From an uncultured beta proteobacterium (GTDB lineage: Bacteria; Pseudomonadota; Gammaproteobacteria; Burkholderiales; Burkholderiaceae_C), in NCBI GenBank assembly GCA_903927295.1, contig CAIYMN010000400.1:1-42740 (forward strand): a stretch of DNA of 42,740 nucleotides, read 5' to 3'. The notes below the pieces were generated by a model. That model was not told the origin of the DNA. It saw nothing but the letters and a program-made list of their open reading frames with translations, and searched no databases. This document shows, piece after piece, positions 329 to 23,049 of the stretch. Positions within the stretch are counted from its first letter, which is position 1. Each line of letters opens with the position of its first letter. Position numbers and translations under genes: made by a program.

Positions 329-1189
329 ATGTCCAATTTTGAGATCGTGACCCGGGAGGACTTCTCGGACGTCACTTACCTGCTTGAAGTACGCCATCCG
401 ATGATGGCCAAAGCCGCCAAGCCAGGCCAATTCGTGATTGTCATGCTCAACGAGCACGGTGAACGGATCCCTCTGACCATCGCCGATTTTGATCGAAACA
501 AAGGCACGATTACTCTGGTAATCCAGGCAGTCGGCAAAACGACGCGCCAGATGCAGCAGGAATGCAAGGTCGGAACAACGCTGTACGGCATGGTCGGACC
601 GATGGGCATTCCCAGCCCCATGAGCCACGCCAAGAAAGTGGTGTGCGTCGGTGGTGGCCTGGGCGTAGCGCCGATCTTTCCGCAGGCGCGCGGCTTCAAG
701 GACGCCGGCGCCTACGTCATTGCCATCCTGGGTTTTCGAAATAAGGATCTGGTCTTCTGGGAGAAGAAGTTCCGTGACTGCTGCGACGAACTGATACTGT
801 GCACGAACGATGGCTCGGCTGGCATGAAGGGCATGATCACCGACGGCATCAAGGTCGCGCTGGCCAGGCACGACGACGTCGAGGAAGTGGTCGCCATCGG
901 CCCGCCGGTCATGATGAAAGCCTGCGCGGATGCCACCCGGGCCGCAAAGATCAAGACCATGGTGAGCGTCAATCCAATCATGGTGGACGGAACCGGGATG
1001 TGCGGTGGTTGCCGTGTCAAGGTCGGCGAGGAGGTCAAGTTTGCCTGCGTGGACGGTCCTGACTTCGATGGCCACCTGGTCGATTTTGACGACCTGATGC
1101 TACGCCTGCAGCGCTACACCACGGTCGAAAAGGAGGCGCACGAGCGCTGGTCCGAGAGTTGCCGCATGGCCAAGCCACCCCAAATTTGA
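329..1189 (+). CDS. NfnA/SudB-like FAD/[2Fe-2S] reductase subunit
   Basis: A 286-aa protein of the dihydroorotate-dehydrogenase electron-transfer / sulfide dehydrogenase beta / NfnA family. The flavin motif R46-x-P-x-T and a nucleotide-binding GGGLGVAP (about 108-115) are visible. The C-terminal cluster region has D220, C225, C228 and C240, matching the Asp plus three Cys [2Fe-2S] ligation known for NfnA. In Nfn, this subunit takes NADH and works with NfnB, NADPH and ferredoxin. The ATG at 329 has AGAAGG eight bases upstream. It is the first gene after the FNR-type promoter and is followed 22 bp later by the NfnB-like gene. Whether this pair bifurcates electrons or only couples ferredoxin with NAD(P)H cannot be read from sequence alone. 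Confidence 0.85.
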   Translation: MSNFEIVTREDFSDVTYLLEVRHPMMAKAAKPGQFVIVMLNEHGERIPLTIADFDRNKGTITLVIQAVGKTTRQMQQECKVGTTLYGMVGPMGIPSPMSHAKKVVCVGGGLGVAPIFPQARGFKDAGAYVIAILGFRNKDLVFWEKKFRDCCDELILCTNDGSAGMKGMITDGIKVALARHDDVEEVVAIGPPVMMKACADATRAAKIKTMVSVNPIMVDGTGMCGGCRVKVGEEVKFACVDGPDFDGHLVDFDDLMLRLQRYTTVEKEAHERWSESCRMAKPPQI

Positions 1190-1211: not shown

Positions 1212-2708
1212 ATGGCCAAGAAAAAGACAATTCGATCGATTCCGCAGGAACGCACACCGATGCGCGAGCTTGACGCCAAGGTGCGCGCCACCAATTTCGA
1301 GGAGGTGGCTTGCGGCTACAACCTCGAAGAAGCGCTGCGCGAATCCGACCGCTGCCTGATGTGCCCGGACGAGCCCTGCATCTCGGGCTGCCCGGTGGGC
1401 ATCAACATCCCGGGCTTCATCCAGAAGATCAGCGAGAAGAATCTTCGCGGCGCGTATGACATTCTGACCAACACCAATTTGCTTCCGTCGATCTGCGGGC
1501 GCGTCTGCCCACAGGAAAACCAGTGCGAAGGTGTCTGCACCGTGGGCGACTCGCTTGAAGCAGTGGCGATCGGGCGCATGGAGCGTTTTGTGGGAGACAC
1601 AGCCATCAAGGAAGGCTGGGTCAATATTCCGCACATCGAACCGAACCGCTTTCGCGTCGGCATCGTTGGCTCGGGTCCTGCCGGCATGGCATGCGCCGCA
1701 GACATGGCCAAGGCAGGTTGCGACGTCACGGTGTACGAGGCTTTTCACCAACCCGGTGGCGTATTGAAGTACGGCATTCCGGATTTCCGCCTTCCCAATG
1801 AGGTCATCGACGCTGAAATCAACAACCTGAAGAAGTTTGGCGTCAAGTTTGAATGCAACACGCTGGTCGGACGACTGTTCACGATCGAACAGATGATTGA
1901 CGAGATGGGCTTTCACGCAGTGTTCGTCGGCGTCGGTGCCGGCTACCCGACCATGCTGAACATCCCCGGAGATTCGCTCAATGGTGTGCTCTCCGCCAAC
2001 GAGTTACTGACGCGCTGCAACCTGATGCGGGCGCGCGATTTTCCGAACTTCGACACCCCGCTACCCATCGGCAAACGGGTTGCCGTGGTCGGCGCCGGCA
2101 ATACCGCGATGGACGCGGTGCGGGTCTCGCTGCGCCTGGGCGCCGAGAAGGTTTACTGCATTTACCGGCGCTCCCGCACGGAAGCACCAGCGCGTGCCGA
2201 AGAAGTGCACCACGCCGAGCAGGAAGGTGTGGAATTCCACTGGCTCACTGCGCCGGTAGCAGTGCTCGACGACGGCAAGGGCAGCGTGCGCGGCATGCGC
2301 TGCGTGCGCATGGAACTTGGCGAGCCCGACGACTCGGGCCGGCGCCGGCCAGTTCAGGTGAAGGGTAGCGAATTCGATTTCGAGGCCGACCTGATCGTCT
2401 ATGCCATCGGCACCAACGCCAATCCGATCATGGGCCAGACCTCCAAACTCAAGTTGAACAAGTGGGGCTACATAGGCACCGACGACACGCTCGCGACTTC
2501 CATCGCTGGTGTCTTTGCCGGTGGCGACATCGTGACCGGTGCAGCCACCGTGATCGAAGCCATGGGCGCAGGTCGCAAGGCGGCGCGTGGCATGAAGGCC
2601 TACCTCGGCATCCGGGATGCGGCCCTGCCCTACAGCGACGCCGACAGCAGCACATTGTTCGGCATCGACACCAAAGAGCGCAACTTTGCCCGCGTCCGGG
2701 TTGCCTGA
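1212..2708 (+). CDS. NfnB/GltD-like FAD, NADPH and 2x[4Fe-4S] subunit
   Basis: A 498-aa protein of the glutamate synthase small subunit / NfnB family. N-terminal Cys groups C48, C51, C56, C60 and C95, C99, C105, C109 can hold two [4Fe-4S] clusters. A first Rossmann motif GSGPAG (153-158) would bind FAD and a second GAGNTAMD (294-301) NADPH. The C-terminal FAD motif A-G-G-D-I is also present. It is commonly annotated gltA/gltD, but no glutamate synthase large subunit is near. Its place directly after an NfnA homologue and before a ferredoxin-dependent oxidoreductase argues for a ferredoxin:NAD(P)+ transhydrogenase role. Shine-Dalgarno GAGGA precedes the ATG. Confidence 0.87.
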   Translation: MAKKKTIRSIPQERTPMRELDAKVRATNFEEVACGYNLEEALRESDRCLMCPDEPCISGCPVGINIPGFIQKISEKNLRGAYDILTNTNLLPSICGRVCPQENQCEGVCTVGDSLEAVAIGRMERFVGDTAIKEGWVNIPHIEPNRFRVGIVGSGPAGMACAADMAKAGCDVTVYEAFHQPGGVLKYGIPDFRLPNEVIDAEINNLKKFGVKFECNTLVGRLFTIEQMIDEMGFHAVFVGVGAGYPTMLNIPGDSLNGVLSANELLTRCNLMRARDFPNFDTPLPIGKRVAVVGAGNTAMDAVRVSLRLGAEKVYCIYRRSRTEAPARAEEVHHAEQEGVEFHWLTAPVAVLDDGKGSVRGMRCVRMELGEPDDSGRRRPVQVKGSEFDFEADLIVYAIGTNANPIMGQTSKLKLNKWGYIGTDDTLATSIAGVFAGGDIVTGAATVIEAMGAGRKAARGMKAYLGIRDAALPYSDADSSTLFGIDTKERNFARVRVA

Positions 2709-2738: not shown

Positions 2739-4649
2739 ATGAACCAAACGACCAAAGAGAAGCCAGCCAAGAAGTCCGCCAGCAAAGCAACGACTGTGGC
2801 CGGCAAGAAGGCGCCCACGATTCTGAAAGAGCACATCGTCGAAATCATCAGTGATTCCGGCGAGGGTGCACAAAAATGCGGCCAGTCACTAGGCTCGATT
2901 GCAGCGCAGATGGGCAACGGCATCTGGACCACCGAAATCATTCCGGCTGAAATTCGCCCACCTGCGCGCAGCGTCGCAGGCGCCAGCGGAAACCGCATCC
3001 GCATCGGCTCTGACTACATCACCAATGGCGGCGATGAGACCGATCTGGTGGTGGCCTTCAATGAGCAGGTGCTGCTCGGACGGGTGCGCGCCAAGGAGCT
3101 TAAACCAGACTGCATCATTTTGCTCGAGAGTATGTGGCGAGAGCACAAGGATCCGAAGATCGTGGCGTCTTACATCGAAGCCCATGACAAACTGGTGGCT
3201 GCTGGCTACCGGGTCTACGAGATTCCGATGGAGAAAGTCTGCCGCACCATGGTGGCCGATGCCAAGCGCGGCAAGAACATGTTTGCGCTTGGCATGCTGT
3301 GCTACATCTACAGCCTGGAAGTGAAACTGGCCATTGACCAGATCGAACTGGCTTTTGGCAAGAAGGACCGCAGCGTCGTCGACGCCAACATCATGCTGCT
3401 CGAAGCCGGCCAAAAATGGGCGGCAACCAATCTTGATTTCTGCTACAGCATACCGGCCAAGCGCGCCACCGAACCGCAAATCGTGGTCAACGGCAACACC
3501 GCACTTGCGCTTGGCGTGCTCGGCTCCGGCATGGAAATCTGCGCCATGTACCCGATCACGCCAGCCACCTCGGCTTCGCACTATCTCTCCGAGGTGTTCG
3601 AGAACGTGGGTGGCATGGTGCATCAGGCGGAAGACGAGATCGCCGCCTGTGCCTTCGCCGTCGGCGCGTCCTACGCTGGCAAGTGCACCATTACCATCAC
3701 ATCCGGCCCGGGCTATTCCCTGAAGCAGGAAGCCATTGGCCTGGCGGTGATGGGCGAGATTCCGCTGGTGGTCGTGAACGTGATGCGCGGCGGCCCCAGC
3801 ACAGGTCAGCCGACCAAGATGGAACAGGGCGACCTGATGACCGCCATCTTTGGCAGCCACGGCGATGCACCCAAGGTCGTGATGGCGCCAGGCACCATCG
3901 AGGAATGTTTTTACTCCATCATGACGGCCCGCAAGATTGCGGAAACCTTCAATATGGTGGTCGTGATCCTGACCGATTCGGGTCTGGCAACTTCGCAGCA
4001 ACCGTTCCCCCGTCCGCAGTTCCATGAATCCTGGTTGGCGCCACCGATTGACCAGAGCCCGGTGCCCAAGGGCGCCCGGCCCTACGACTGGGACGACACC
4101 ACGGGACTGGCGCGGCGCTTCATTCCGGGTCAGCCCGGAGGCATGCACACGTTGACCGGCCTGGCGCACGACCGTGACAGCCACGTCGCCTACGACGCCG
4201 ACATCAACGAGCAGACGCTGCGTTTCCGCAGCCTGAAGCTTGCCACGCTGCAAAAGACACTGAAAGCACCTACCGTCTTCGGCGCCGCCAAGGGCGACCT
4301 GCTGGTGGTGGGTTGGGGCAGCACCAAGGGTGCGATCGAAGAAGCGATTAGCGCCATGCGCGCCGACGGCTACAAGGTGTCCTCGCTGCATCTTCAGTTC
4401 CTGCAACCGCTGCCCCCGGGCATCAAGGAAATCATGCAGGGTTTCAAGAAGGTGATGACGATTGAGAGCAACTGGAGCGATCGCCCGGAAGACAAAGTCA
4501 TTGATGAAAACAACCGGCGCTACTCGTCGGTGGCAATTCTGCTGCGCTCGCGCTACCTGGTGGATGTGGACTGCTGGAGCGAGGTGCGCGGTCAACCGAT
4601 CAAGCCCAGCACGATCCGTCGCGTGTTACTCAAACAACTGCAAAAGTAA
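2739..4649 (+). CDS. 2-oxoacid:ferredoxin oxidoreductase, fused gamma-alpha subunit
   Basis: A 636-aa KorA/ForA-like subunit. Residues about 28-220 form the gamma domain (start ...EIISDSGEGAQKCG) and about 245-636 the alpha (PP) domain, with the conserved YPITPATS, SGPGYSL and RGGPSTGQPT motifs that line the CoA/TPP site. With the beta subunit it would interconvert a 2-oxoacid plus CoA with acyl-CoA, CO2 and two low-potential electrons on ferredoxin. The first 27 residues are a Lys/Ala-rich extension not expected in the family. The substrate is not certain: 2-oxoglutarate is the usual assignment for this fused architecture, but pyruvate or a branched or short-chain 2-oxoacid is possible. It follows nfnB by 30 bp and precedes the beta gene by 23 bp. 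Confidence 0.9.
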   Translation: MNQTTKEKPAKKSASKATTVAGKKAPTILKEHIVEIISDSGEGAQKCGQSLGSIAAQMGNGIWTTEIIPAEIRPPARSVAGASGNRIRIGSDYITNGGDETDLVVAFNEQVLLGRVRAKELKPDCIILLESMWREHKDPKIVASYIEAHDKLVAAGYRVYEIPMEKVCRTMVADAKRGKNMFALGMLCYIYSLEVKLAIDQIELAFGKKDRSVVDANIMLLEAGQKWAATNLDFCYSIPAKRATEPQIVVNGNTALALGVLGSGMEICAMYPITPATSASHYLSEVFENVGGMVHQAEDEIAACAFAVGASYAGKCTITITSGPGYSLKQEAIGLAVMGEIPLVVVNVMRGGPSTGQPTKMEQGDLMTAIFGSHGDAPKVVMAPGTIEECFYSIMTARKIAETFNMVVVILTDSGLATSQQPFPRPQFHESWLAPPIDQSPVPKGARPYDWDDTTGLARRFIPGQPGGMHTLTGLAHDRDSHVAYDADINEQTLRFRSLKLATLQKTLKAPTVFGAAKGDLLVVGWGSTKGAIEEAISAMRADGYKVSSLHLQFLQPLPPGIKEIMQGFKKVMTIESNWSDRPEDKVIDENNRRYSSVAILLRSRYLVDVDCWSEVRGQPIKPSTIRRVLLKQLQK

Positions 4650-4672
4650 AAGTACAGAAAGGTGAAAACACC

Positions 4673-5656
4673 ATGAACATGATGTCCGCCACGGAGTGTC
4701 TGCTGGAAATGTGCGACGAGCACTTTGAGCTTGAAGACTATCAGAGCGGGGTACCGCGCTGGTGCACCGGATGCGGCGACAACGCCATTCTTGCTGCCGT
4801 GCAGCGCCTGTGCAGGGATGAAGCGCTGGCGCCGGAGAAGACCGTGTTTGTCTCAGGCATCGGCTGCTCCAGCCGCTTTCCGCATTACATGAAGACCTAC
4901 GGCTTTCACGGCATTCACGGTCGTGCACTGCCAGTAGCCGAGGGTGTCAAGATGGCCCGGCCTGATCTGACCGTCTTCGTCAATACGGGCGACGGCGACT
5001 GCTGCAGCATTGGTGCGGCGCACTGGATCCACGCCATCCGTTACAACATGAACATCACGGTGTTCCTGCACGACAACCAGATCTACGGCCTGACCAAGAA
5101 GCAGGCCTCACCGACTTCGCCGATCGGCACCAAGAGCAACACCACGCCGCGCGGCAGTTACCTTGAAGCACTGAATCCGCTGACCGTCACCCTGGGCGTA
5201 CAGAACGTCTCTTTTGTAGCGCAGGCAGTCGACTGGATTCCGGAAGTTTTGTACGACATCGTCAAGGCTGCCTACCACCACAAGGGGCTGTCTTTCGTGC
5301 GCATCGTGCAGCGCTGCCCCGAGTGGCTCCCGGTGTCGCTTGACCCTTGGCTGAACGACCCGAATCGGGTGCAATTGCTCAATCATGCAGATGGCCTGCA
5401 AACCAGCGCCGGCATGTCGCGAATTTACAAGAACCAGTTGCAGCATGACCCGGCCAACATAGACCGGGCGCGCGAAATCGCCTCTGGCACCGACACAATT
5501 CCCGTCGGCATCCTGTACCGCAATCCGTACGTCCCCTGCTATGAGGACTTGCGGCTCACAGACAAGTTGCGCACAGCCGAACTGACACGCACCGGTTTGA
5601 ACGCTGAACTTGACAAATACACGGTCTGGCCAGCAGAACAGAAGGCAGGGAAGTAA
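4673..5656 (+). CDS. 2-oxoacid:ferredoxin oxidoreductase, beta subunit
   Basis: A 327-aa TPP-binding subunit. C31, C34 (WCTGCGD), C65 and C215 have the spacing of the four ligands of the single [4Fe-4S] cluster in crystallised archaeal beta subunits. GDGD (107-110) followed by DNQIYGLTKKQ is the TPP/Mg signature. It is closer in motif texture to KorB/ForB of Bacteroidetes and Aquificales type than to the second beta subunit in this window (10531-11586). The Shine-Dalgarno AAAGGTG supports the ATG at 4673, though M3 or M4 is an alternative. It is in operon with the fused gamma-alpha gene and the large ferredoxin-tailed protein that follows by 4 bp. Confidence 0.9.
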   Translation: MNMMSATECLLEMCDEHFELEDYQSGVPRWCTGCGDNAILAAVQRLCRDEALAPEKTVFVSGIGCSSRFPHYMKTYGFHGIHGRALPVAEGVKMARPDLTVFVNTGDGDCCSIGAAHWIHAIRYNMNITVFLHDNQIYGLTKKQASPTSPIGTKSNTTPRGSYLEALNPLTVTLGVQNVSFVAQAVDWIPEVLYDIVKAAYHHKGLSFVRIVQRCPEWLPVSLDPWLNDPNRVQLLNHADGLQTSAGMSRIYKNQLQHDPANIDRAREIASGTDTIPVGILYRNPYVPCYEDLRLTDKLRTAELTRTGLNAELDKYTVWPAEQKAGK

Positions 5657-5660
5657 GAAC

Positions 5661-7862
5661 ATGCAAGCAGATACACAAGCACAAGTTGCCTTCTACCTGA
5701 CCGGCAGACGCGCCAGCGCGCAACTCGATGCGGTTGACTCACTGGCCCTGCTCCCGGCTCTTTTTGCGGGCTATCGGAACCTGTCTGAACTGCGTTATGA
5801 CTTTCCGCTCCTGCTGGTAGAAGGCGCTGCCGACGACAAGGCGGTCCAGTCGCTGTCCGGGCTGTTCGACCATGCGCTCGCGGGTGCAGCACGTGGCGCT
5901 GATGCAGAGCGAATCAGAAAGCATGCGCTGCGCATTGAGCAGGAAATTCGTACGCTGGCCGCCAATGGCACTGGTGCAACGTTCTCTGCACTTTGGACCA
6001 AAGCGACGACCGCACTCGGCAAGTCGGCTGACAAATCGTTCGAAGATAGCGCGCGCCGGATTCGCACCGCCATCAAGGTCGACGGTGCTGTGGTTGATTG
6101 CGACGCCGCACTGGCGACGCGGCTGCTGCAGCATGCCTGGGCCGCGGTGCAGCGACAGAAAGCACAGGGCTTTCGTAAAAACCTTGACCGCCTCGCGCTC
6201 AAGTTGTCTGACATCCTGAAGGCGGATCATGAGCGCTCGGCTGCCGGACGCAGCGCGAAAAATCTGCACAGTGCCGTCGGCAGTGGATTCGCCGATGCGT
6301 TTGACTTCGACACCATGTCGCGCATGCTCGCCAAGGCCCTGCCGAAGGACGCGTTCCCGGAGAGCCGGCGCAAGCGCATCAACGAGTTGCTCGCCACTCT
6401 GAACGCACAGCAGTTCATTCCAGCCAGCGGCAAGGCCGGTGCCGCCAAGCCCTACTCTTTCCTGTTCACCAGTTGCGCCGACGCGCTGAGCGCCTTTCAC
6501 CAGCGCAGTGCCAAGCAGATGGCGCTGGCCAAGGCCATTGCGATGGCCGAGCTCGAAATTGCCGGCCAGTACAGCGAAGCACGTCACGACGCCCTGTTTG
6601 AGCAGTTTGGTGCCAACGGCCTCGATCCGCAGGAACTGGCAAAGTTCCCCGACTACCTTGTCTGCGCCAGCGCCGCCGGACTGGAAGCAGTTGAACGCGC
6701 CCAACTGATGGAAATCCTGTCCTCGGGTCTGCCAATCAAGGTCCTGCTCCAGATTGACGACATTCTGGAACTCTCGCCGCACGATGCAGGCAGCCTGACC
6801 ACCGGTACGAGCAGCCAGAAGATCGCCAGCATGGCAATGGGCCTGAACGACGTCTATGTGATGCAATCGAGCAGTTCCAACCTGCTGCGCTTTCACGATC
6901 GCATGCTGCGCGGACTACGCTACCGAGGTCCAGCCCTCTTCAGCGTGTTTTCTGGCGCCAGTGCCAAGGCTTCCGGTTTGCCCCCCTATCTGGCGGCAGC
7001 GGCGGCAATGGAGTCGCGCGCTTTCCCGGCCTTCAGTTACGACCCGTCAGCCGGCTCGAACTGGGTCACGCGTTTCTACCTCGGCGCCAATACCCAGGTC
7101 AATCTGGATTGGCCGGTCCAGGCCTTCAGCTACGAGGACGTGCAGCACCAGCGTGTCTCTGAAGATCTGGCCTTCACGTTCATCGATTTTCTGGCGAGTG
7201 ATCGCCGCTACGCCGCCCACCTGGCTCGCGTGCCACGCGCACAGTGGAATGGCAGCCTGATTACGGTCACCGAGAGTCTGGCCAGCGAGCGCAAGGGCTT
7301 GCCTGACAAGGTGCCCAGCCTGGCGATGGTCGATGCCGCCAACGTGCTGCAAAAAGTCATTGTTGACGAGCGACTGATCCGCGAAGCCCGCCGTTGCCTC
7401 GACGCTTGGCACAGCCTGCAGGAACTCGGTGGTGTGCACAACTCACACGCCCAGAAGCTTCTGGCGCGCGAGAAGAGAGCTTGGGAAGACAGTGCTCAGC
7501 AGGCGGCTGAAGCGCTCGCCGCAAATGCACCCGCCCCTGCTCCGGTCGCAGCCACTGCAGCGCCCGCGGCAGGCGCCAGCGCAGCCGTGGCAGAGGCCGA
7601 ACCAGAAAGGTCACCCGACGAGGCCTACATCGAAACGGCACGCTGCTCGACTTGCAACGAGTGCACCACAATCAACAGCAAGATGTTTGCCTATGACAAA
7701 AACCAGCAGGCCCGCATCATCGACATCAACGCCGGGACCTACGCCCAGTTGGTCGAAGCAGCCGAGAGTTGCCAGGTGTCCATCATTCATCCCGGAAAGC
7801 CACGCAACCCCAAGGAAGCAGGCCTGGAAGAACTGATCAAGCGCGCCGAACTGTTCCAGTAA
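5661..7862 (+). CDS. PFOR-domain-like protein with tethered C-terminal [4Fe-4S] ferredoxin
   Basis: A 733-aa protein with no standard name that I know. The start at 5661 (ATGCAAGCA) is preferred over the upstream in-frame ATG inside korB because GGGAAG lies before it. Residues 1 to about 290 are helical and unrecognised. About 330-520 look like the last TPP-binding domain of pyruvate:ferredoxin oxidoreductase (SSGLPIKVLLQIDDIL, then SQKIASMAMG..DVYVMQ, then RGPALFSVFSG), but the GDG/TPP-Mg motif and the SNTGGQ loop are absent, so it should not bind TPP in the normal way. An Ala/Pro/Glu linker (about 617-655) leads to C662-x2-C665-x2-C668 and C704, a single-cluster ferredoxin domain. Inferred role: scaffold and mobile electron carrier for the upstream oxidoreductase and Nfn pair. 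Confidence 0.7.
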   Translation: MQADTQAQVAFYLTGRRASAQLDAVDSLALLPALFAGYRNLSELRYDFPLLLVEGAADDKAVQSLSGLFDHALAGAARGADAERIRKHALRIEQEIRTLAANGTGATFSALWTKATTALGKSADKSFEDSARRIRTAIKVDGAVVDCDAALATRLLQHAWAAVQRQKAQGFRKNLDRLALKLSDILKADHERSAAGRSAKNLHSAVGSGFADAFDFDTMSRMLAKALPKDAFPESRRKRINELLATLNAQQFIPASGKAGAAKPYSFLFTSCADALSAFHQRSAKQMALAKAIAMAELEIAGQYSEARHDALFEQFGANGLDPQELAKFPDYLVCASAAGLEAVERAQLMEILSSGLPIKVLLQIDDILELSPHDAGSLTTGTSSQKIASMAMGLNDVYVMQSSSSNLLRFHDRMLRGLRYRGPALFSVFSGASAKASGLPPYLAAAAAMESRAFPAFSYDPSAGSNWVTRFYLGANTQVNLDWPVQAFSYEDVQHQRVSEDLAFTFIDFLASDRRYAAHLARVPRAQWNGSLITVTESLASERKGLPDKVPSLAMVDAANVLQKVIVDERLIREARRCLDAWHSLQELGGVHNSHAQKLLAREKRAWEDSAQQAAEALAANAPAPAPVAATAAPAAGASAAVAEAEPERSPDEAYIETARCSTCNECTTINSKMFAYDKNQQARIIDINAGTYAQLVEAAESCQVSIIHPGKPRNPKEAGLEELIKRAELFQ

Positions 7863-8072: not shown

Positions 8073-9431
8073 GTGCTCTACCAACTCTACGAAACGCAGC
8101 GTTCCCTGATGGAGCCCCTGACTGACCTGGCTCACTCGGCTTCCAAGGTCTACGGCAATCCCTTGTCGTTGCTCGGACAGAGTCCGTTCGCACAACGGAT
8201 TTCAGCGGGCTACGACCTGATGCACCGCTTGGGCAAGGACTATGAAAAGCCGGAATTCGGTCTGCGCACGGTTGAGGTTGAAGGGGTCGAAGTGGCGATC
8301 CATGAGCGCATCGAAATTGACAAACCATTCTGTCAGTTGCGCCGCTTCAAGCGCTTCACGGACAATCCGGCAACCTTGCAAAAATTGAAAGATCAACCGG
8401 TGGTCTTGATAGTGGCGCCGCTGTCAGGCCACTACGCGACGCTATTGCGCGATACCGTCAAGACCATGCTGAAGGATCACAAGGTCTACATAACAGACTG
8501 GAAGAATGCCCGCCTGATACCGTTGTCGGACGGAAAGTTCTCGCTCGACGACTATGTCAATTACGTGCAGGAATTCATTCGCCACCTGCAGGGCAGTTAC
8601 GGTAATTGCCACGTGGTCAGCGTTTGTCAGCCAACCGTTCCTGTGCTGGCTGCTGTTTCCCTGATGGCCAGCCGCGGCGAGTTGACGCCTTTCACCATGA
8701 CCATGATGGGCGGTCCGATTGACGCGCGCAAATCGCCGACAGCGGTCAATAACCTGGCCATGAACAAGAGCCATGACTGGTTTGAAAATAACGTTATTTA
8801 CCGCGTTCCCACTAATTTTGCCGGCGCTGGTCGGCGTGTATACCCTGGCTTTCTGCAACACACGGGCTTCGTCGCTATGAACCCGAGCAACCACGCCAAG
8901 AGCCACTACGACTACTTCAAGGACCTGATCAAGGGTGACGGTGCAAGCACGGAAGCCCACCGCAAGTTCTACGACGAGTACAACGCCGTGCTCGACATGG
9001 ATGCTGACTACTACCTCGATACGATACGGGTCGTGTTTCAGGACTTCAGTCTGGTCAGCGGCACGTGGGACGTTGTGGGTGTGGATGGAAAGACCGAACG
9101 GGTGCGGCCTCAGGACATCACGACCACCGCCTTATTCTCGGTTGAAGGTGAACTCGACGACATTTCCGGCTCCGGTCAGACCGAGGCGGTTCACAGCATC
9201 TGCAGCGGCGTTCTCGCATCAGAACAAAAACATCTGGAAGTGCCCGGTGCCGGACATTACGGCATCTTCAGCGGCCGACGCTGGCGCGAGGTGGTCTACC
9301 CACAGGTGAAGGCCTTCATCCTCAGCCATCAGTCGACTGTCCAAACGCCTGCAAAGGCGCCAACCGCTCGGGTCAAGCCAAGCGCTGCGAAGACCCGGGC
9401 CGTACCCAAGAAGATCGCTCGCAAGAAATAA
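8073..9431 (+). CDS. phaZ: Intracellular polyhydroxyalkanoate (PHB) depolymerase
   Basis: A 452-aa protein of the PhaZa1 family (starting MLYQLYETQR, as in Ralstonia homologues). It hydrolyses amorphous intracellular PHB/PHBV granules to hydroxyacyl units. The nucleophile elbow reads VSVCQPTV, so a Cys replaces the usual Ser; this is the known state of this family. The late His (GAGHYGIFSGRRW) fits the catalytic triad. The start is GTG at 8073, with a modest GAAAG upstream. The last 35 or so residues are Lys/Ala/Pro-rich, probably a basic tail for binding DNA or the granule surface. The stop codon overlaps the start of the following RnfB-like gene (TAATG), so the two are translationally coupled. 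Confidence 0.92.
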   Translation: MLYQLYETQRSLMEPLTDLAHSASKVYGNPLSLLGQSPFAQRISAGYDLMHRLGKDYEKPEFGLRTVEVEGVEVAIHERIEIDKPFCQLRRFKRFTDNPATLQKLKDQPVVLIVAPLSGHYATLLRDTVKTMLKDHKVYITDWKNARLIPLSDGKFSLDDYVNYVQEFIRHLQGSYGNCHVVSVCQPTVPVLAAVSLMASRGELTPFTMTMMGGPIDARKSPTAVNNLAMNKSHDWFENNVIYRVPTNFAGAGRRVYPGFLQHTGFVAMNPSNHAKSHYDYFKDLIKGDGASTEAHRKFYDEYNAVLDMDADYYLDTIRVVFQDFSLVSGTWDVVGVDGKTERVRPQDITTTALFSVEGELDDISGSGQTEAVHSICSGVLASEQKHLEVPGAGHYGIFSGRRWREVVYPQVKAFILSHQSTVQTPAKAPTARVKPSAAKTRAVPKKIARKK

Positions 9432-10030
9432 TGCGCGCCTTGGCTGCCAGGGTTTTGGCGGTTCTGCCACAGACTCAGTGCCGCCGTTGTGGCTACAACG
9501 ACTGCACGGCCTACGCAAACGCGATTGCCGAAGGCGGTGCCAGGATCAACCAGTGCCCGCCCGGTGGCACCCAGGGGATTGCGCGGCTGGCTGCGGTTAC
9601 AGCCCAGGCGGTCGTCGTCCTGAACCCGGAAAACGGCACTGAGGGACCACGCAGTGCCGCCTTGATTGCTGAGGCCTTGTGTATCGGCTGCACCCTGTGC
9701 ATCAAGGGGTGTCCGACCGACGCCATCATCGGCAGCAACAAACAGATGCACACGGTGATCGAAGCTTACTGCACCGGATGCGAGCTTTGCCTGCCGATCT
9801 GCCCGGTCGATTGCATTGAAATGGAAAATGTGTCGGGCACCGCCAGCGGCTGGAATGCCTGGTCAGCCGGGCAAGCAGCAATGGCGCGCCAGCGCTACGA
9901 TTTTCATCAACAGCGAAGCGGATATGAGCTGACAGAAAACGCCGACATGTCGCAAGACAGGCACAGCGTCATTGAGGCCGTCGTAAAACGCGCGCGCCCC
10001 CAGCGCAACGCAAACAGCGGCAGGAACTAA
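9431..10030 (+). CDS. RnfB-like ferredoxin with three [4Fe-4S] sites
   Basis: A 199-aa protein. The N-terminal Cys set C17, C20, C25, C42 is the Fer4-type domain of RnfB. It is followed by two CxxCxxCxxxC clusters (C84, C87, C90, C94 and C114, C117, C120, C124). Unlike complete RnfB of Rnf complexes there is no N-terminal membrane helix, and no other rnf gene is nearby, so it is a soluble electron carrier. Stand-alone RnfB-like proteins are common in Burkholderiales, often near nth; here it is fused in translation to phaZ. It may act as the ferredoxin pool for the two oxidoreductase systems that flank it, which is inference from position. Confidence 0.85.
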   Translation: MRALAARVLAVLPQTQCRRCGYNDCTAYANAIAEGGARINQCPPGGTQGIARLAAVTAQAVVVLNPENGTEGPRSAALIAEALCIGCTLCIKGCPTDAIIGSNKQMHTVIEAYCTGCELCLPICPVDCIEMENVSGTASGWNAWSAGQAAMARQRYDFHQQRSGYELTENADMSQDRHSVIEAVVKRARPQRNANSGRN

Positions 10031-10530: not shown

Positions 10531-11586
10531 CTAACGCAGCGATGCGTTGATTCTGTCGAGCACCCTGGAGCCCGGGCACAGTTGCTTGACGCCCAGTGCG
10601 TTGAGCGGCGTGTCACTGGTGTTGAGCGACATGTGCAGATCCGTGGCAATCGGGTCCAGATACAAGAGTCCGGTCACCACCTCACCGCGCACCTGGTGCG
10701 AATTCATGTAACTCAAAGCGGCGTAGCGGTCAGTGGGATCGTAGTCCTGGTGCAGTTTGCGCAAGCGCAAGGTAGAGCCGTCGTGCTGCTCAACGTCTAT
10801 CACCGAGCCCGGCGCGTACTCGGCTGTGATCTCCTCGCGTGACGTCATGAAGTCGATCCGGCTGACAGCCTCGTTGTGCTGGCGCACATAGTCGTAACTC
10901 TTGGTGCTGCCACCATGGTTATTGAACGTGACGCAGGGGCTGATGACGTCGATGAAAGCAGCTCCACCGTGGTCAATGGCGCCCTTGATGAGTGGCACCA
11001 GTTGCGCCTTGTCGCCAGAGAAACTGCGCGCCACATAAGTCGCACCCAGCTGCAGCGCCAACCCCACCAGATCCACCGGGCTGTCGCTGTTGATGACACC
11101 CTTCTTGCTCTTAGAACCGCGGTCGGCGGTCGCAGAGAACTGTCCTTTGGTCAGTCCATAAACACCGTTGTTCTCCACGATGTAAGCCATGCGCACACCT
11201 CGGCGCATCGCGTTGGCAAATTGTCCCAATCCAATGGAAGCGGAATCACCGTCGCCGGAGACACCCAGATACAGCAGGTCGCGATTTGCCAGATTGGCGC
11301 CTGTCAACACCGAGGGCATGCGCCCGTGCACCGTGTTGAAACCGTGTGACGCCCCCAGAAAATAATCGGGTGTCTTGGAACTGCAGCCAATGCCGGAAAG
11401 CTTAGCCACACGGTGTGGTTCGATGTTGAGTTCCCAGCAAGCCTGGATGATGGCTGCAGAAATCGAGTCGTGTCCGCATCCCGCGCACAGTGTGGAAATG
11501 CGCCCCTCGTAATCGCGCCGCGTGTAACCTACCTTGTTGGTGGTAAGCGTCGGGTGATGCAGTTTGGGTTTGGCGAGGTAGGTCAT
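10531..11586 (-). CDS. korB: 2-oxoglutarate oxidoreductase beta subunit (KorB type)
   Basis: A 351-aa TPP/[4Fe-4S] subunit of the Mycobacterium/Thauera KorB type. C34, C37 (LCAGCGHD), C68 and C218 (SPCVTFNNH) supply the cluster ligands; GDGD (111-114) with ENNGVYGLTKGQ binds TPP. The SPCVTFNN..GGSTKSY segment is diagnostic of this subgroup and is absent from the other beta subunit in the window. It forms succinyl-CoA and CO2 from 2-oxoglutarate and CoA, passing electrons on. Its ATG overlaps the stop of the alpha gene (ATGA at 11583-11586), so expression is coupled. Confidence 0.92.
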   Translation of the reverse strand: MTYLAKPKLHHPTLTTNKVGYTRRDYEGRISTLCAGCGHDSISAAIIQACWELNIEPHRVAKLSGIGCSSKTPDYFLGASHGFNTVHGRMPSVLTGANLANRDLLYLGVSGDGDSASIGLGQFANAMRRGVRMAYIVENNGVYGLTKGQFSATADRGSKSKKGVINSDSPVDLVGLALQLGATYVARSFSGDKAQLVPLIKGAIDHGGAAFIDVISPCVTFNNHGGSTKSYDYVRQHNEAVSRIDFMTSREEITAEYAPGSVIDVEQHDGSTLRLRKLHQDYDPTDRYAALSYMNSHQVRGEVVTGLLYLDPIATDLHMSLNTSDTPLNALGVKQLCPGSRVLDRINASLR

Positions 11587-13397
11587 ACGGCCTCCAGTTG
11601 CAGGTTCTGCTCGATGAATTGGGTGATGAAACGCGCAGTAATCGGCGTGCCGTCGTAGTGCAGCACCTTGATCAGGCGCGCCGGGTCGATCGCCAATTCG
11701 TTGACCAGCAACGATTGCATCTGGCCATCCCGATTTTGTTCCACCACGAACACCTTGTCGTGCTCGGCAATGAAGTTCTCGACGGAAGCCGGGAACGGGA
11801 AGGCGCGCAGACGCATCGCGTCGATGTGGATCCCGTTGGCAGTCAGCACGTCAAGCGCTTCCTGCATCGCCGGACTGGTCGAACCAAAATAAAGCACGCC
11901 CATCCTGGTTGGTTTTTCGGCCTTGCGCAGCACCGGTTGCGGCACAAGATCAGCAGCTGTCTGGAACTTGTGCAGCAGACGTTTCATGTTGTAGATGTAA
12001 TCCGGGCCGCGCTCCGAGTAGCGCGCGTACGGATCACGCGTGGTGCCCCGTGTGAAGAAACTGCCCTTGGTCGGGTGGGTACCAGGCAAGGTGCGCCACG
12101 GAATCCCGTCGCCATCCACATCCTTGTAACGGCCAAAATCCTTGCCTGCTTCGAGTTCCTCGGCGGTCATGACTTTGCCACGGTCGTACTCGCGTTTATC
12201 GTCCCAGACAAAGGGCTTGCACAGCCGCTGGTTCATGCCAATGTCCAGATCGGTCATGACAAAAATCGGCGTCTGCAGACGATCGGCCAGATCCAGCGCG
12301 GCCGCTGATTGCTCAAAGCATTCATAAGGATCTTCCGGAAAAAGCATCACATGTTTGGTGTCGCCGTGCGAGGCGTAGGCGCAGCTCAGCAGATCGGACT
12401 GCTGCGTACGCGTGGGCATACCGGTAGAAGGTCCACCGCGCTGCACATTGATAATGGTGACCGGAATCTCTGCGAAATAGGCCAGACCAATGAATTCCGA
12501 CATGAGGGAAATGCCAGGACCAGAGGTCGCCGTAAAGGCACGCGCACCGTTCCAGCCAGCACCCACCACCATGCCAATCGAAGCCAACTCGTCTTCCGCC
12601 TGCACAATGGCCACATTGCTGCGCCCGGTATGCTCGTCGATGCGGTACTTGTCGCAATACTTCTGGAATGCCTCGGGCACTGAAGAAGATGGGGTGATCG
12701 GGTACCAGGCGGCAACTGACGCACCACCATAAACACAACCCAGCGCGGCTGCGCTGTTGCCGTCGGTGAAGATCTGGTCACCCACCTTGTCGGCGCGGCG
12801 CACACGCAAACCGATCGGTGCGCTCAGATGTTGCGTGACATAGTCCCGCCCCAGATGCAGCGCACGAACGTTGGAATCGAGCAGCATCTCCTTGCCACGA
12901 TATTGCTCGGAAAAGAGTTTTTCGAACACCTCGGCTTCGACATCGAGCAGCACAGAGAGCGCACCAACGTAAATGATGTTCTTGAAAAGTTGGCGCTGCC
13001 GCGAGTCGGTGTAGGCCGCGTTGGCAATCTCGGTCAGCGGAATACCAATGACCTCGATGTCCTTGCGAAAACGCGATTCCGGGATCGGTCGCGTGCTGTC
13101 ATAAAAAAGGTAACCGCCACTTTGAATTTCGCCGACATCGTTGTCCCAGGTCTGCGGATTCATGGCGACCATCATGTCTACGCCACCGCGGCGACCGCCG
13201 TAGCCTTTTTCACAGACTCTGGCTTCGTACCAGGTTGGCATCCCCTGAATGTTGCTGGGGAAAATGTTGCGCGGACTGACCGGCACGCCCATGCGCATGA
13301 TGGCTTTGGCAAACAGTTCGTTGGCCGAGGCCGAGCCGGAACCGTTGACGTTGGCGAACTTGATGACGAAGTCGTTGATAGCTTCTATGTGTTTCAT
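11583..13397 (-). CDS. korA: 2-oxoglutarate oxidoreductase gamma-alpha subunit (KorA type)
   Basis: A 604-aa fused subunit: gamma domain at about 1-190 (GSGSASANELFAKAI, GGRRGGVDMMVA) and alpha domain from about 215 (YPITPSSSVPE, TSGPGISLMSEF, RGGPSTGMPTRTQQSDL). The calculated size of roughly 66 kDa fits the large subunit of the 2-oxoglutarate oxidoreductases of Thauera and Azoarcus. The start MKHIEAIN at 13397 is chosen because it overlaps the stop of the upstream gene as ATGA, whereas the longer frame would run deep into it. Functions with korB (coupled downstream) and the flavoprotein gene upstream. Confidence 0.92.
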   Translation of the reverse strand: MKHIEAINDFVIKFANVNGSGSASANELFAKAIMRMGVPVSPRNIFPSNIQGMPTWYEARVCEKGYGGRRGGVDMMVAMNPQTWDNDVGEIQSGGYLFYDSTRPIPESRFRKDIEVIGIPLTEIANAAYTDSRQRQLFKNIIYVGALSVLLDVEAEVFEKLFSEQYRGKEMLLDSNVRALHLGRDYVTQHLSAPIGLRVRRADKVGDQIFTDGNSAAALGCVYGGASVAAWYPITPSSSVPEAFQKYCDKYRIDEHTGRSNVAIVQAEDELASIGMVVGAGWNGARAFTATSGPGISLMSEFIGLAYFAEIPVTIINVQRGGPSTGMPTRTQQSDLLSCAYASHGDTKHVMLFPEDPYECFEQSAAALDLADRLQTPIFVMTDLDIGMNQRLCKPFVWDDKREYDRGKVMTAEELEAGKDFGRYKDVDGDGIPWRTLPGTHPTKGSFFTRGTTRDPYARYSERGPDYIYNMKRLLHKFQTAADLVPQPVLRKAEKPTRMGVLYFGSTSPAMQEALDVLTANGIHIDAMRLRAFPFPASVENFIAEHDKVFVVEQNRDGQMQSLLVNELAIDPARLIKVLHYDGTPITARFITQFIEQNLQLEAV

Positions 13398-15226
13398 ACG
13401 GCCTCCATCGCGCGGCGAACGACTTTGCCATCCCGGCAACGGGCTCCAGCCTGCGTCGTACTGAATAAGAATTTCTGCATATCCCAGGCCCCGGTCGGGC
13501 AACGCTCGGCACACAAGCCGCAATGCAGACAAACGTCCTCATCTTTCACCATCACACGTCCTGTCTTGAGCGCGCCAGACACGTAGAGGTCCTGCGCAAA
13601 GTTGGTCGCCGGCGCTTTCAGGCGGGTGCGCAGATCATCCTCTTCACCGTTCTTGGTGAAGGTGATGCAATCCATCGGGCAGATGTCGACGCACGCATCA
13701 CATTCAATGCACGTGTGCTTGGTAAATACGGTCTCGACGTCGCAGTTCAGGCAGCGATGCGTCTCCTTGAACGCCGTGGCCGCATCGAAACCCAGTTCCA
13801 CTTCAACCCGGATACTGGCCAATGCCACCTCCGCTTTCGCCCATGGCACCTTGAAACGGGAATCTCCCGACACTGAACTGTCGTAACTCCACTCGTGAAT
13901 CCCCATCTTGGCTGACATCAGATTGGTCATGGGTGCCGGACGACGGTGCACGTCTTCGCCATGGAGCAGGCGATCAATCGACACCGCTGCCTCGTGACCA
14001 TGCGCCACGGCTGTAATGATGTTCTTTGGCCCGTAAGCCGCGTCACCACCAAAAAATACGTTCGGCACAGTGGACTGGAACGCATCGGCCACCAACACCG
14101 GCAAACCCCACTTGTCAAATTCGATACCGACATCGCTCTCAATCCAGGGGAACGCGTTTTCCTGACCGACGGCAATCAGCACGGCATCGCACTCGACGAG
14201 CACATCGGGCACGCCGGTGGGCACCAGTGAGCGTCGACCCTTGTCGTCATAGACCGCTTTCACAATCTCAAAACGCATGCCGGTCAATTTGCCATTGGCA
14301 TGCTCAAAGGACTTGGGAACATGGAAGTTCAGAATCGGAATGCCCTCATGCAGGGCATCCTCTTTCTCCCAGGGAGATGCCTTCATCTCTTCAAAACCGC
14401 TGCGCACAATTACCTTCACATCACTGCCGCCCATGCGCCGCGCCGAGCGGCAGCAATCCATCGCGGTATTGCCCCCCCCGAGCACAATGACACGCTTGCC
14501 GATGCTGGTGATATGCCCAAAGGAAACTGAAGCCAGCCAGTCAATACCGATGTGGATGTTCTCCTTGATGTCCCAGCGCCCGGGAACATCCAGATCGCGA
14601 CCACGTGGTGCGCCGCATCCAACGAAGACGGCGTCGTAGCCTTCGGTCAAAAGCTTGCGCATGGAATCAATGCGCTGACCGCCTTTGAACTGCACGCCCA
14701 GATCGAGGATGTAACCAGTCTCTTCATCAATCACCGACTCGGGCAGGCGAAAACGTGGGATCTGGCTGCGAATGAAACCACCCGCCTTGGCCTCGCCATC
14801 AAACACCGTCACTTCGTAACCAAGCGGCGCCAGATCCCTCGCGACTGTCAGAGAAGCCGGGCCGGCACCGACACAGGCCACACGCTTGCCGTTCTTGGGA
14901 GCGACAGCGGGCATGCGATGCTTGACGTCGTCCTTGTTGTCGGCCGCGACGCGCTTGAGCCGGCAAATGGCCACTGGCTCCGGATGATCGCCATTGCTTT
15001 CTTCGACCCGACCGCGGCGGCAGGCCGGCTCGCAGGGACGGTCGCAGGTGCGCCCCAGCACGCCCGGAAATACGTTGGAAACCCAGTTCACCATGTAGGC
15101 ATCGCTGTAACGGCCCTGGCCGATCAAGCGGATGTACTCTGGAACGGGAGTGTGGGCTGGACAGGCCCATTGACAATCTACGACTTTGTGAAAATAGTTT
15201 GGATTAGCGGTGTTGGTAGGTTGCAA
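13394..15226 (-). CDS. Flavin/Fe-S gamma subunit: NAD(P)-coupling partner of KorAB
   Basis: About 610 aa. I place the start at a TTG (15226) because CAGGAGA lies five bases upstream; an ATG-initiated form up to 15313 would have no such site. N-terminal Cys are C18, C22 and C61, C65, C69, a shortened version of the GltD-type cluster region. GAGPAS then binds FAD and GGGNTAMD NAD(P)H. Near the C-terminus two ferredoxin-like clusters follow (HTCIECDACVDICP and DVCLHCGLCAERCP), plus an extra CLNC. The size of about 67 kDa and the linkage match the flavin subunit of the three-subunit 2-oxoglutarate:NADP+ oxidoreductase described in Azoarcus evansii. It passes electrons from KorAB to NADP+ or the reverse. 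Confidence 0.8.
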   Translation of the reverse strand: MQPTNTANPNYFHKVVDCQWACPAHTPVPEYIRLIGQGRYSDAYMVNWVSNVFPGVLGRTCDRPCEPACRRGRVEESNGDHPEPVAICRLKRVAADNKDDVKHRMPAVAPKNGKRVACVGAGPASLTVARDLAPLGYEVTVFDGEAKAGGFIRSQIPRFRLPESVIDEETGYILDLGVQFKGGQRIDSMRKLLTEGYDAVFVGCGAPRGRDLDVPGRWDIKENIHIGIDWLASVSFGHITSIGKRVIVLGGGNTAMDCCRSARRMGGSDVKVIVRSGFEEMKASPWEKEDALHEGIPILNFHVPKSFEHANGKLTGMRFEIVKAVYDDKGRRSLVPTGVPDVLVECDAVLIAVGQENAFPWIESDVGIEFDKWGLPVLVADAFQSTVPNVFFGGDAAYGPKNIITAVAHGHEAAVSIDRLLHGEDVHRRPAPMTNLMSAKMGIHEWSYDSSVSGDSRFKVPWAKAEVALASIRVEVELGFDAATAFKETHRCLNCDVETVFTKHTCIECDACVDICPMDCITFTKNGEEDDLRTRLKAPATNFAQDLYVSGALKTGRVMVKDEDVCLHCGLCAERCPTGAWDMQKFLFSTTQAGARCRDGKVVRRAMEAV

Positions 15227-15334
15227 GTCTGTCTCCTGAGCCGCGATGGCGGCAGGGTGAACGGGGAGTGTACGCCAGTGATCTTGCCAAATTGCCGCCA
15301 GCGCCATCGCCAATCAGGGCCGCTTCAGCAGACT

Positions 15335-15376: not shown

Positions 15377-15862
15377 TCAGGTCGACGTTGCCGCAAGACG
15401 GGCAAAAGCTGCCACGACTTCGGGTGGCGCCTGCACCAGTTCGATCAGCACACCCTCGCCGCTGATCGGAAATTCTTCATTGTGTCGTGGATGCAAAAAA
15501 CAGATGTCGAAGCCGGCCGCGCCGGCGCGGATGCCACCCGGCGCGAAGCGCACCCCCTGCGCTGTCAGCCATTGAACCGCAGTCGGCAAATCATCAATCC
15601 ACAAACCTACATGGTTCAGGGGCGTAGTGTGCACTGCCGGTTTCTTCTCGCTATCAAGAGGCTGCATCAGGTCAACCTCGACTTTGAACGGACCGCTGCC
15701 GATGGCGCAAATGTCTTCGTCCACGTTTTCGCGCTCGCTGCGAAAGGTACCTGTCACCTCGAGGCCAAGCATATTGACCCAGAGCCTTTGCAAGCGAGCC
15801 TTGTCGGGGCCGCCAATGGCGATTTGCTGGATTCCCAGCACCTTGAACGGTCTGCTCGTCAT
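15377..15862 (-). CDS. VOC-fold protein, probable methylmalonyl-CoA epimerase
   Basis: A 161-aa vicinal-oxygen-chelate protein with two beta-alpha-beta-beta-beta modules. H at NHVGLWIDD and E at GVLIELVQ occupy usual metal-ligand positions, but the first-strand ligand is Q (GIQQIAIG) where epimerases and glyoxalases carry His. The start MTSRPFKV leaves a 1-base gap to the pccA stop, so it belongs to the propionyl-CoA operon. Context argues for epimerisation of (S)- to (R)-methylmalonyl-CoA between carboxylase and mutase. The altered ligand leaves room for a lyase or another VOC activity. Confidence 0.7.
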
Positions 15863-15863
15863 A

Positions 15864-17918
15864 TCACACAAACTCCACGATCGGCTGATCAACCACCAGA
15901 CTTTCACCCTTGCTCGCCAGCACTTTGCCGACGACGCCGTCCGCCGCCGCAAACAGGACGTTTTCCATCTTCATAGCTTCGATCACCGCCACTCGCTCGC
16001 CGGCCTGCACCTTCTGGCCTTCCTTCACTGCGACCTCAACCAGCAAGCCGGGCATGGGCGACAAGACGAAGCGGCTCATGTCGGGTGGCGCCTTGTAGGG
16101 CATCAGAGCGTGCAACTCAGCCGCTCGCCTGGACAGAACCAGAGCATCTATTTGGGTGCCGTTGTGCGAGACGCGTATCGCCAGCGGATTCTTGCCGGCC
16201 AACGCACCGCGCTCCACCTGCGCCACAAATTCCTGCCCGTTGCAAGTGCCGCTGATGCGGATTTCGCCTAGGCGATAGTTACTGCGCAGTTGGTAGCTGC
16301 GGGAGCCCACCTTGATCAGGCTGGAGCCGGTCTTCTGGTCAAACTCAATCACCGATACTGGCGTCTGTGTCGTCAGGCCTTGCTGCCCCAGAGTCACCAC
16401 GACAAAGTCCTGCCCAACCGCCACCTCATGCCCTTCCATCTGACCGCTGATGGCGGTCGCACGACCGCGGTACTTACGGTGCACAAAGGCGGCCAGTGCC
16501 AGCAGCAGTTCGGCGTCGTCATGCGGCACGTCCTGCGCTCTGAAGCCGTGCGAATAATGTTCAGCAATGAATCCGGTGTTGAAGTCGCCCGCGACAAACT
16601 TTGGGTGCGCCAGCAGCGCCGCCTGAAACGGAATGCTGCTGCTGACACCGCGGATCACAAATCCATTGAGTGCCTGGCGCATTTTGGCGATCGCGTCCAT
16701 GCGATCCTTGCCATGCACGATCAGTTTGCAGATCATCGAGTCGTAATACATCGGAATCTCGCCACCTTCCTGCACGCCGGTATCAACCCGCACGCCCAGC
16801 CAGCGGCTCAGGTCGGAGGCAACCATCGTTTCGGCAGGCGGCTGAAAGCGCACCAAGCGACCGGTTGAGGGCAGGAAGTTGCGAAACGGATCTTCGGCAT
16901 TGATGCGGCACTCAATAGCCCAGCCATCGCGCTTCACATCGGCCTGCGTCAACGGTAATTTTTCGCCCGCCGCAACGCGAATCATCAATTCAACCAGGTC
17001 CAGCCCCGTAATGCATTCTGTCACCGGGTGCTCCACCTGCAGCCGGGTATTCATCTCCAGAAAATAAAAGCTCTGATCCTTGCCGACGACAAACTCCACC
17101 GTGCCCGCGCTCTGGTACTTGACGGCGCGGGCCAGCGCCACGGCCTGCTCGCCCATGGCCTTGCGTGTGGCGTCACTGATAAAGGACGACGGTGCTTCCT
17201 CAATCACTTTTTGATGACGCCGCTGGATCGAACACTCACGCTCATTGAGGTAAACCATGTTGCCGTGTGCGTCACCGATAAGCTGGATTTCAATGTGACG
17301 CGGCTCCTCGACGTACTTCTCGACAAATACGCGGTCATCACCAAAACTGTTGCGCGCTTCATTGCGGCAACTGGTGAAACCCTCGAAAGCCTCCTTGTCA
17401 TTGAATGCCACCCGCAGACCTTTGCCACCACCACCGGCGCTGGCCTTAATCATCACCGGATAGCCAATGCCTCCGGCAATTTCAACCGCCTGCTCGGCAC
17501 TTTCAATCGCACTGTTAACGCCGGGGATGCAGTTCACACCGGCCGCACCGGCAAGCTTTTTCGACTCGATCTTGTCGCCCATCGCCGCCATCGAATAGTG
17601 CTTGGGACCGATGAAGACAATGCCCTGCTCCTCCACAGTCCTGGCAAACCCGGCGTTCTCACTCAGGAAGCCATAGCCGGGATGGATCGCCTGGGCGCCG
17701 GTCTGCTTGCAGGCGGCAATGATCCTGTCGCCCAGCAGGTAGCTCTCACGGCTTGGCGCCGGTCCGATGTTGACAGCCTCATCGGCCAGCATCACATGGC
17801 GCGCCTCCTTGTCGGCGTCGGAATACACCGCCACCGTCTTGATGCCCATTTTGCGTGCGGTCTTGATGACACGGCAGGCGATCTCGCCGCGGTTCGCAAT
17901 CAGTATTTTGGTAAACAT
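15864..17918 (-). CDS. pccA: Propionyl-CoA (acyl-CoA) carboxylase alpha subunit
   Basis: A 684-aa biotin carboxylase/BCCP protein. The biotin-carboxylase N domain (GYGFLSEN), the ATP-grasp loop ([14 protein letters not shown]), a BT linker domain and a C-terminal biotinyl domain with A648-M-K650-M are all in order; K650 is the biotin site. With PccB it carboxylates propionyl-CoA to methylmalonyl-CoA. The neighbours (pccB, meaB, methylmalonyl-CoA mutase) make propionyl-CoA a better guess than acetyl- or methylcrotonyl-CoA. It ends one base before the VOC gene starts. Confidence 0.93.
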
Positions 17919-17927
17919 GTCAGTCTC

Positions 17928-18218
17928 CTATTCGGGAATCAGTTTTTGTGCTTTTCGCAATGGCGTGAAATGCCACCACGGCAATGCGGGGCCACCGTTC
18001 ATGAAATCTCTGGCGGCCAAAAAGGTGTCGAGGACACATGGATCGTGGCGCTGACCCATTGGCGTGCGCAGAGCGTCGTACATCGCCATCGGGTCCATGG
18101 CGGCCACATCAGCAGGCGTGTTCACACCCAGGCCGCGCAAGTCGTTTGCGATGGACTTTCCGACATTCGGAATATCCATCAACACACGGGCCTCAGAGGC
18201 GTTGGCAGCTTTAGGCAT
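17928..18218 (-). CDS. Small helix-hairpin-helix protein (Cdd1 family)
   Basis: A 96-aa protein with an N-terminal HhH motif (DIPNVGKSIANDLRGLG) and the family signature GQRHDPCVLDTF, as in the Cdd1/pathogenicity-locus family. ATG at 18218 is taken; a GTG at 18227 three codons upstream is possible. It sits between pccB and pccA in the same direction with a 9-bp gap to pccA. The family has no firm function: HhH elements usually bind nucleic acid. Its link to propionyl-CoA genes is unexplained. Confidence 0.8.
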   Translation of the reverse strand: MPKAANASEARVLMDIPNVGKSIANDLRGLGVNTPADVAAMDPMAMYDALRTPMGQRHDPCVLDTFLAARDFMNGGPALPWWHFTPLRKAQKLIPE

Positions 18219-18275
18219 CCAAAGCACCCAAGAGCGCTCGCGAGCAATGAAAGCGACTGTTCTTCCAGCGCATGA

Positions 18276-20859: not shown

Positions 20860-20892
20860 GATTGTCCTGAATCGGCGTCTGACGGCGCCTAC

Positions 20893-23049
<2,157 letters not shown>

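Follow-up and report, generated by a model that had tools for sequence, protein, structure and literature searches.

X is the product of an open reading frame of 733 aa that begins with an ATG at 5661 and ends at 7862 (+) of contig CAIYMN010000400.1 (assembly GCA_903927295.1), a 42,740-nucleotide stretch from an uncultured beta proteobacterium, the whole of which is called the window here. The protein is a putative, catalytically dead half of a pyruvate:ferredoxin oxidoreductase (PFOR), and it probably serves as an adaptor, with a tethered ferredoxin that shuttles electrons between a 2-oxoacid:ferredoxin oxidoreductase (OFOR; KorA and KorB, together KorAB) and an Nfn (NfnA and NfnB, together NfnAB). 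The genes for these four proteins precede X, which is a constant subunit of the resulting five-gene OFOR–Nfn module, with near absolute linkage.

The kinship of X with PFOR is far beyond chance. Relatives of X were gathered in a collection scan from which the best 80 of 325 were kept, and the family alignment has 77 rows reaching down to ~51% identity. A profile comparison of this family with long PFORs gave Prob 100 and an E-value of 7e-72, with X aligning to columns 755-1645 alone of the long-PFOR profile. Further support came from the predicted model of X: all 17 Foldseek matches in the PDB with E <=0.001 are PFOR chains (best E 5e-6), and residues 45-591 of the model match 6cin_A 692-1170. 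The PFOR-like fold expected by a first-pass annotation of the window is therefore present. A search of PDB sequences with the single sequence did not reveal the PFOR kinship and returned a weak ferredoxin match only, so the kinship is drawn from relatives, profiles and fold. No model in Pfam or NCBIfam covers the body of X; its single Pfam match is a weak one, to a single-cluster ferredoxin in the C-terminal part.

The first-pass annotation had seen the PFOR pattern in the middle of the protein. The likeness stands, and its extent is greater than that, spanning nearly all of X from ~residue 10 to the C-terminus, with the N-terminal 140 residues aligning with PFOR domain V. Domains I-IV are absent from the chain, both in the Pfam matches and in the long-PFOR profile alignment. 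By descent, X belongs to the PFOR superfamily through sequence and fold homology to domains V-VI, and the alignments indicate that it is derived from domains V and VI plus the tethered ferredoxin, the C-terminal half of a long PFOR. Long PFORs (~1640 aa, e.g. L131, and the more distant L133) share sequence with X from ~residue 10 on, including a helical insert, the Ala/Pro linker and the ferredoxin, whereas X has neither domains I-IV nor the motifs for thiamine pyrophosphate (TPP) and for the three internal clusters. The crystallised PFORs of Moorella (6cin) and Desulfovibrio (2c3y) are catalytic and align over X 42-593, with the C-terminal ferredoxin lying outside. In a tree of 34 rows (12 X of the 77 plus 22 PFOR rows), X forms one clade with support of 100/100 on a long branch away from the long PFORs; as the tool warns of long branches meeting, the exact attachment of this clade is not claimed.

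What makes a PFOR catalytic appears to have been lost from X. In a joint alignment of the 77 X rows with 10 long PFORs, GDG is found at the aligned columns in 0/77 X versus 10/10 long PFORs, and the Asn of SNTGG, present in all ten long PFORs, is Asn in none of the X rows. A lone Asp occupies the GDG Asp column in 4/77, and the tripeptide GDG occurs elsewhere in the chain in 16/77. The absence of GDG and SNTGGQ, and the pseudo-enzyme that was proposed from it, are thereby borne out: the TPP site is gone while the PFOR fold is retained. The losses also go beyond the TPP site to the motifs of the three internal [4Fe-4S] clusters, whose ligands we take to be distributed over PFOR domains V and VI. 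Twelve Cys columns belong to these clusters, of which ten have Cys in 0/77 X rows (including PFOR C801, C804, C807, C937, C940, C943 and C947), one in 1/77 (C811) and one in 77/77. This last is C147 of X (= PFOR C1018), the sole internal-cluster Cys retained family-wide. The TPP motif and CxxC ligands of a KorB-like OFOR beta subunit are likewise missing, as judged via the PFOR alignment. Two more Cys residues of the body, C272 (76/77; codon 6474-6476) and C579 (73/77; codon 7395-7397), are conserved together with C147 despite loss of the ancestral cluster site.

The C-terminal part of X is predicted to be a single-cluster ferredoxin on a flexible linker. Here, the four ligands noted previously, C662, C665, C668 and C704, are all Cys in 77/77 rows, and the domain matches Fer4_13 of Pfam with an E-value of 1.6e-4 and 22.7 bits versus a curated cut-off of 24.5. 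Of the regions compared, the ferredoxin is the most conserved (0.85) and the linker at 613-652 the least (0.51). The linker is 30-60 residues long with a median Ala plus Pro fraction of 0.51 versus 0.18 in residues 1-609, and pLDDT in the predicted model falls below 50 at 623-649. The suggestion that X had gained its ferredoxin is not supported, as an Ala/Pro-rich linker followed by a ferredoxin-like tail with four Cys already forms the end of long PFORs from this order, including one from the source genome. The fourth Cys of that tail lies at the X column in 7 type-1 long PFORs and is displaced near the C-terminus in 3 of type 2. Since linker and tail are shared, the ferredoxin of X was presumably inherited while the rest decayed.

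The ATG start is preceded by the Shine-Dalgarno-like GGAAG, and M1 is kept in >=90% of the family alignment. A longer frame starting with TTG at 5610 was dropped, as both of these features favour the ATG. X begins 4 bp after KorB, and no terminator-like site was found 3' of it. In L109 and L112, X falls within open frames of 1094-1122 aa, which were considered as KorB–X fusions and rejected, the stretch before X not being KorB-like. The copy of X in L077 (9335-11542) has one internal stop, at residue 197, a possible frameshift, assembly error or decay.

KorB, or a piece thereof, lies directly upstream of X in 77 of the 80 loci, and the three loci without it (L053, L056, L103) hold <90 bp of upstream sequence each. 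The complete series NfnA-NfnB-KorA-KorB-X, in order and on one strand, is found in 51 of the 52 loci with >5.7 kb upstream; in L101 the NfnA match is partial. As a best-80 set could bias linkage, a second sample of genomes was used. Among 399 genomes of the order, standalone X, KorB (E <=1e-90) and NfnA (at least 71% identity) are present in the same 12, with limits chosen by the analyst and the best few first-look candidates scored per genome. The other 16 genomes matching X carry long PFORs, two further genomes have an Nfn at 54-55% only, and the set is split between contigs in G045 and G431. Among 60 closer genomes, 10 have X and 9 have KorB (E <=1e-60), the difference being G017, where X is cut by the contig end; among 299 genomes of the phylum, standalone X is seen in the source genome alone. 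Across 51 loci, the distances of the five proteins are correlated with one another (0.72-0.87), consistent with inheritance of the genes as a unit. These surveys agree with the constant linkage that the first-pass annotation had anticipated. Records of X relatives include metagenome-assembled genomes labelled Alphaproteobacteria, Acidobacteria, Spirochaetia and others (labels unverified). Two of the loci, L066 and L100, come from cultured bacteria, Ramlibacter lithotrophicus RBP-1 and Propionivibrio soli SG131.

The partner genes are those of a complete OFOR and an Nfn pair, as first described. KorA scores 507 bits as an OAFO-type gamma-alpha subunit versus 19.6 with the PFOR model, and its closest solved chain is 6n2n_A, the Magnetococcus 2-oxoglutarate:ferredoxin oxidoreductase (OGOR). 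KorB is closest to 5b46_B, with 6n2n_B also matched, and scores 251.1 bits against TIGR02177 (cut-off 261.9). With a fused gamma-alpha subunit and a beta subunit bearing the TPP and Cys motifs, KorAB is a two-subunit OFOR, and NfnAB (329-2708) is assigned to Nfn by homology of both subunits to solved Nfn. No ferredoxin domain is found among the Pfam matches of KorA and KorB. A PFOR fission, in which X and its missing half would share the operon, was rejected: KorA is of the OAFO type and is not a PFOR N-terminus, so the operon is without the missing half. At the position of beta-Lys49 in the Sulfolobus OFOR (StOFOR), KorB has Arg, as does the Magnetococcus OGOR, but the StOFOR1 K49R variant favoured pyruvate (PMC5020499).

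In the proposed mechanism, KorAB would carry out the 2-oxoacid/acyl-CoA chemistry (2-oxoglutarate or pyruvate + CoA <-> succinyl-CoA or acetyl-CoA + CO2); by sequence, it contains no ferredoxin like that of domain V. X would dock on KorAB and/or Nfn with its PFOR-fold body, and its ferredoxin would swing to and fro between the clusters of KorB and NfnB, so that low-potential electrons would be kept inside the module. Nfn would bifurcate or confurcate between NAD and NADP, following the reaction chemistry given in the relevant part of PMC6405883. The flow could be either oxidative, with NADPH production, or reductive and NADPH-driven, with 2-oxoglutarate or pyruvate as the substrate.

A 2-oxoacid oxidoreductase with a tethered ferredoxin-like tail is paired with Nfn in two different architectures. 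The second is that of the type-2 long PFORs, where NfnB and then NfnA are found in 5/5 loci with enough DNA (L133, L137, L140, L141, L142). One of these, L133, is on contig C25 of the source genome, with a long PFOR of 1660 aa at 2819-7798 (-) and an Nfn-like frame at 3-2474; within this genome the two Nfn parts seem to be joined in one open frame of 944 aa.

Several points weigh against X as the electron-passing adaptor. Gene linkage alone leaves the electron path unfixed, and the Pfam score of the ferredoxin is below the curated cut-off. The invariant C147 and near-invariant C272 and C579 leave room for a remodelled metal site in the body. A second Kor cluster in the window (Table 1) recurs, with KorA2/KorB2 near the X module in 11/80 loci, distant ones included, so X could serve that cluster too. 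As to the long PFORs, those of type 1 are nearer X in sequence and have Nfn in 0/7 cases, with short flanks, so the parallel rests on the distant type-2 group, whose ferredoxin tail is weak (L133 scores 16.4 bits with Fer4_13) with the fourth Cys displaced.

Among the other explanations, a rather unlikely one makes X the ferredoxin partner of KorAB alone: it would serve other acceptors, and Nfn would be co-transcribed for NAD(P)H balance without docking with X. X would then stand in for the delta subunit of four-subunit OFORs. This suits a KorAB without Pfam ferredoxin matches and the distances of X, which track those of KorA/KorB (0.87/0.84) above those of NfnA/NfnB (0.78/0.72), although all five proteins are co-inherited. 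It sits poorly with NfnA and X occurring in an identical set of 12 among the 399 genomes, and with the type-2 long PFORs that, carrying a ferredoxin-like tail, also precede Nfn. It is unlikely that the chief role of X lies in the structure, assembly or regulation of KorAB, with the ferredoxin used for cluster insertion or redox sensing. Retention of a large PFOR-fold body after loss of the catalytic motifs would be explained, as would the faster evolution of X, which is ~2x that of its four partners (mean distance 0.40 versus 0.17-0.22 in 51 loci); against this stand the ferredoxin, which is better conserved than any other region, and a linker that remains rich in Ala and Pro.

It is highly improbable that the body holds another redox metal site, formed by C147 with C272, C579 or others, which would make X an enzyme or a second electron relay: the conservation of these Cys speaks for it, but the other three ligand columns of the ancestral proximal cluster have Cys in 0/77. 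That X is a broken remnant, either a fission fragment or a decaying gene, can practically be dismissed, for although it is half a protein without catalytic motifs and the L077 copy has a stop, its Cys are invariant across 77 rows down to ~51% identity, it forms one fully supported clade and the OAFO-type KorA leaves the operon without the missing half.

The components of the module are known individually. Pyruvate:NADP+ oxidoreductase, a PFOR fused to a reductase domain, has a tethered acceptor as X does, but is a single catalytic chain with another acceptor domain. The Magnetococcus OGOR (6n2n) and StOFOR (5b46) have KorA/KorB-type subunits, and NfnAB/NfnSL of Thermotoga and Pyrococcus (4ylf, 5jca) are like NfnA and NfnB in sequence, the genes for which are here tied to those of OFOR and X in one operon. 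StOFOR consists of two alpha-beta heterodimers with a separate dicluster ferredoxin, and the part of PMC5020499 describing this mentions no X-like subunit. The term oxoglutarate is absent from the main text of an Nfn review (PMC6405883). AadN of Rhodopseudomonas is an Nfn homologue present in strains whose aromatic-degradation cluster is without korAB and missing from strains in which the cluster has it (PMC9973337), which shows that in other systems Nfn and Kor have related roles in supplying electrons. The first-pass annotation knew of no system of this composition, and a search of open-licence PubMed Central text likewise found no description of an X–Kor–Nfn combination. PFOR, OFOR, Nfn and Fer4_13 are known, and a PFOR-derived pseudo-enzyme acting as an electron-carrying OFOR–Nfn adaptor was not seen in that literature.

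Table 1. Features of the window, with the putative subdivision of X.
Feature	Position	Strand	Basis or remark
NfnA (small subunit)	329..1189	+	5jca_S 7.7e-93
NfnB (large subunit)	1212..2708	+	4ylf_B 2.4e-166
KorA, fused gamma-alpha OFOR subunit	2739..4649	+	TIGR03710 5e-152; 6n2n_A 9.8e-73
KorB, OFOR beta subunit, GDG and CxxC motifs	4673..5656	+	TIGR02177 1.5e-74
X, putative pseudo-PFOR C-terminal half with tethered ferredoxin, 733 aa	5661..7862	+	
X residues 10-140, putative decayed domain V of a long PFOR	5688..6080	+	its two [4Fe-4S] motifs have their Cys replaced or deleted; profile comparison, joint alignment
X residues 141-609, putative decayed domain VI (TPP fold)	6081..7487	+	includes helical insert common to long PFORs
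Codon of invariant C147	6099..6101	+	aligns with PFOR C1018
X residues 610-652, variable Ala/Pro-rich linker	7488..7616	+	low model confidence, least conserved region
X residues 653-733, predicted single-cluster ferredoxin domain (C662, C665, C668, C704)	7617..7859	+	Fer4_13 match, 4 Cys
Polyhydroxyalkanoate depolymerase (PhaZ) and RsxB/RnfB-like Fe-S protein, after X	8073-10030	+	
Second OFOR cluster, KorB2-KorA2-KorC	10531-15313	-	KorC = Fer4_20 + Pyr_redox_2 + Fer4_7
Methylmalonyl-CoA pathway set	15377-23049	-	Glyoxalase_4 (epimerase-like), biotin carboxylase, carboxyltransferase, MeaB, methylmalonyl-CoA mutase

Further genes of the window were queried in the 80 loci, of which 26 reach at least 20 kb, so the absence of further neighbours is weak evidence. 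PhaZ and RsxB are found in 8/80 loci, all close relatives, and CBS in 10/80; methylmalonyl-CoA mutase is present in 1/80, and both carboxylase subunits and MeaB in 0/80. The KorC query matched 58 loci, where its matches are indistinguishable from NfnB cross-matches. Unsupervised clustering of the flanks (crude open frames, many of them antisense) found no further constant gene, and a plasmid search gave two weak matches of 28-31% identity without an annotated name. KorB2-KorA2-KorC is probably like the 2-oxoglutarate:NADP+ oxidoreductase of Azoarcus evansii, a system that is not known to have X or NfnA. Together, the second Kor cluster and the methylmalonyl-CoA set make a succinyl-CoA/2-oxoglutarate substrate attractive here.

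A further-reaching proposal, offered only tentatively, is that the five proteins form a stable machine in which the dead PFOR half wires OFOR to a bifurcating Nfn via a captive ferredoxin. Betaproteobacteria that are not strict anaerobes might then use NADPH to make 2-oxoglutarate or pyruvate by reductive carboxylation and need no free pool of low-potential ferredoxin. As a dedicated electron-bifurcating 2-oxoacid complex, the module would define a new class. If X is the adaptor proposed here, an enzyme half without active site and internal cofactors would have kept one electron-carrying domain and been reused to join two enzymes that are otherwise thought to trade electrons via free ferredoxin. 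This would provide a testable claim on the insulation of low-potential electrons in bacteria. Metabolic models of Rhodoferax, Ramlibacter, Propionivibrio, Accumulibacter and their relatives, as named in the record titles, could then usefully include a 2-oxoacid/NAD(P) coupling site.
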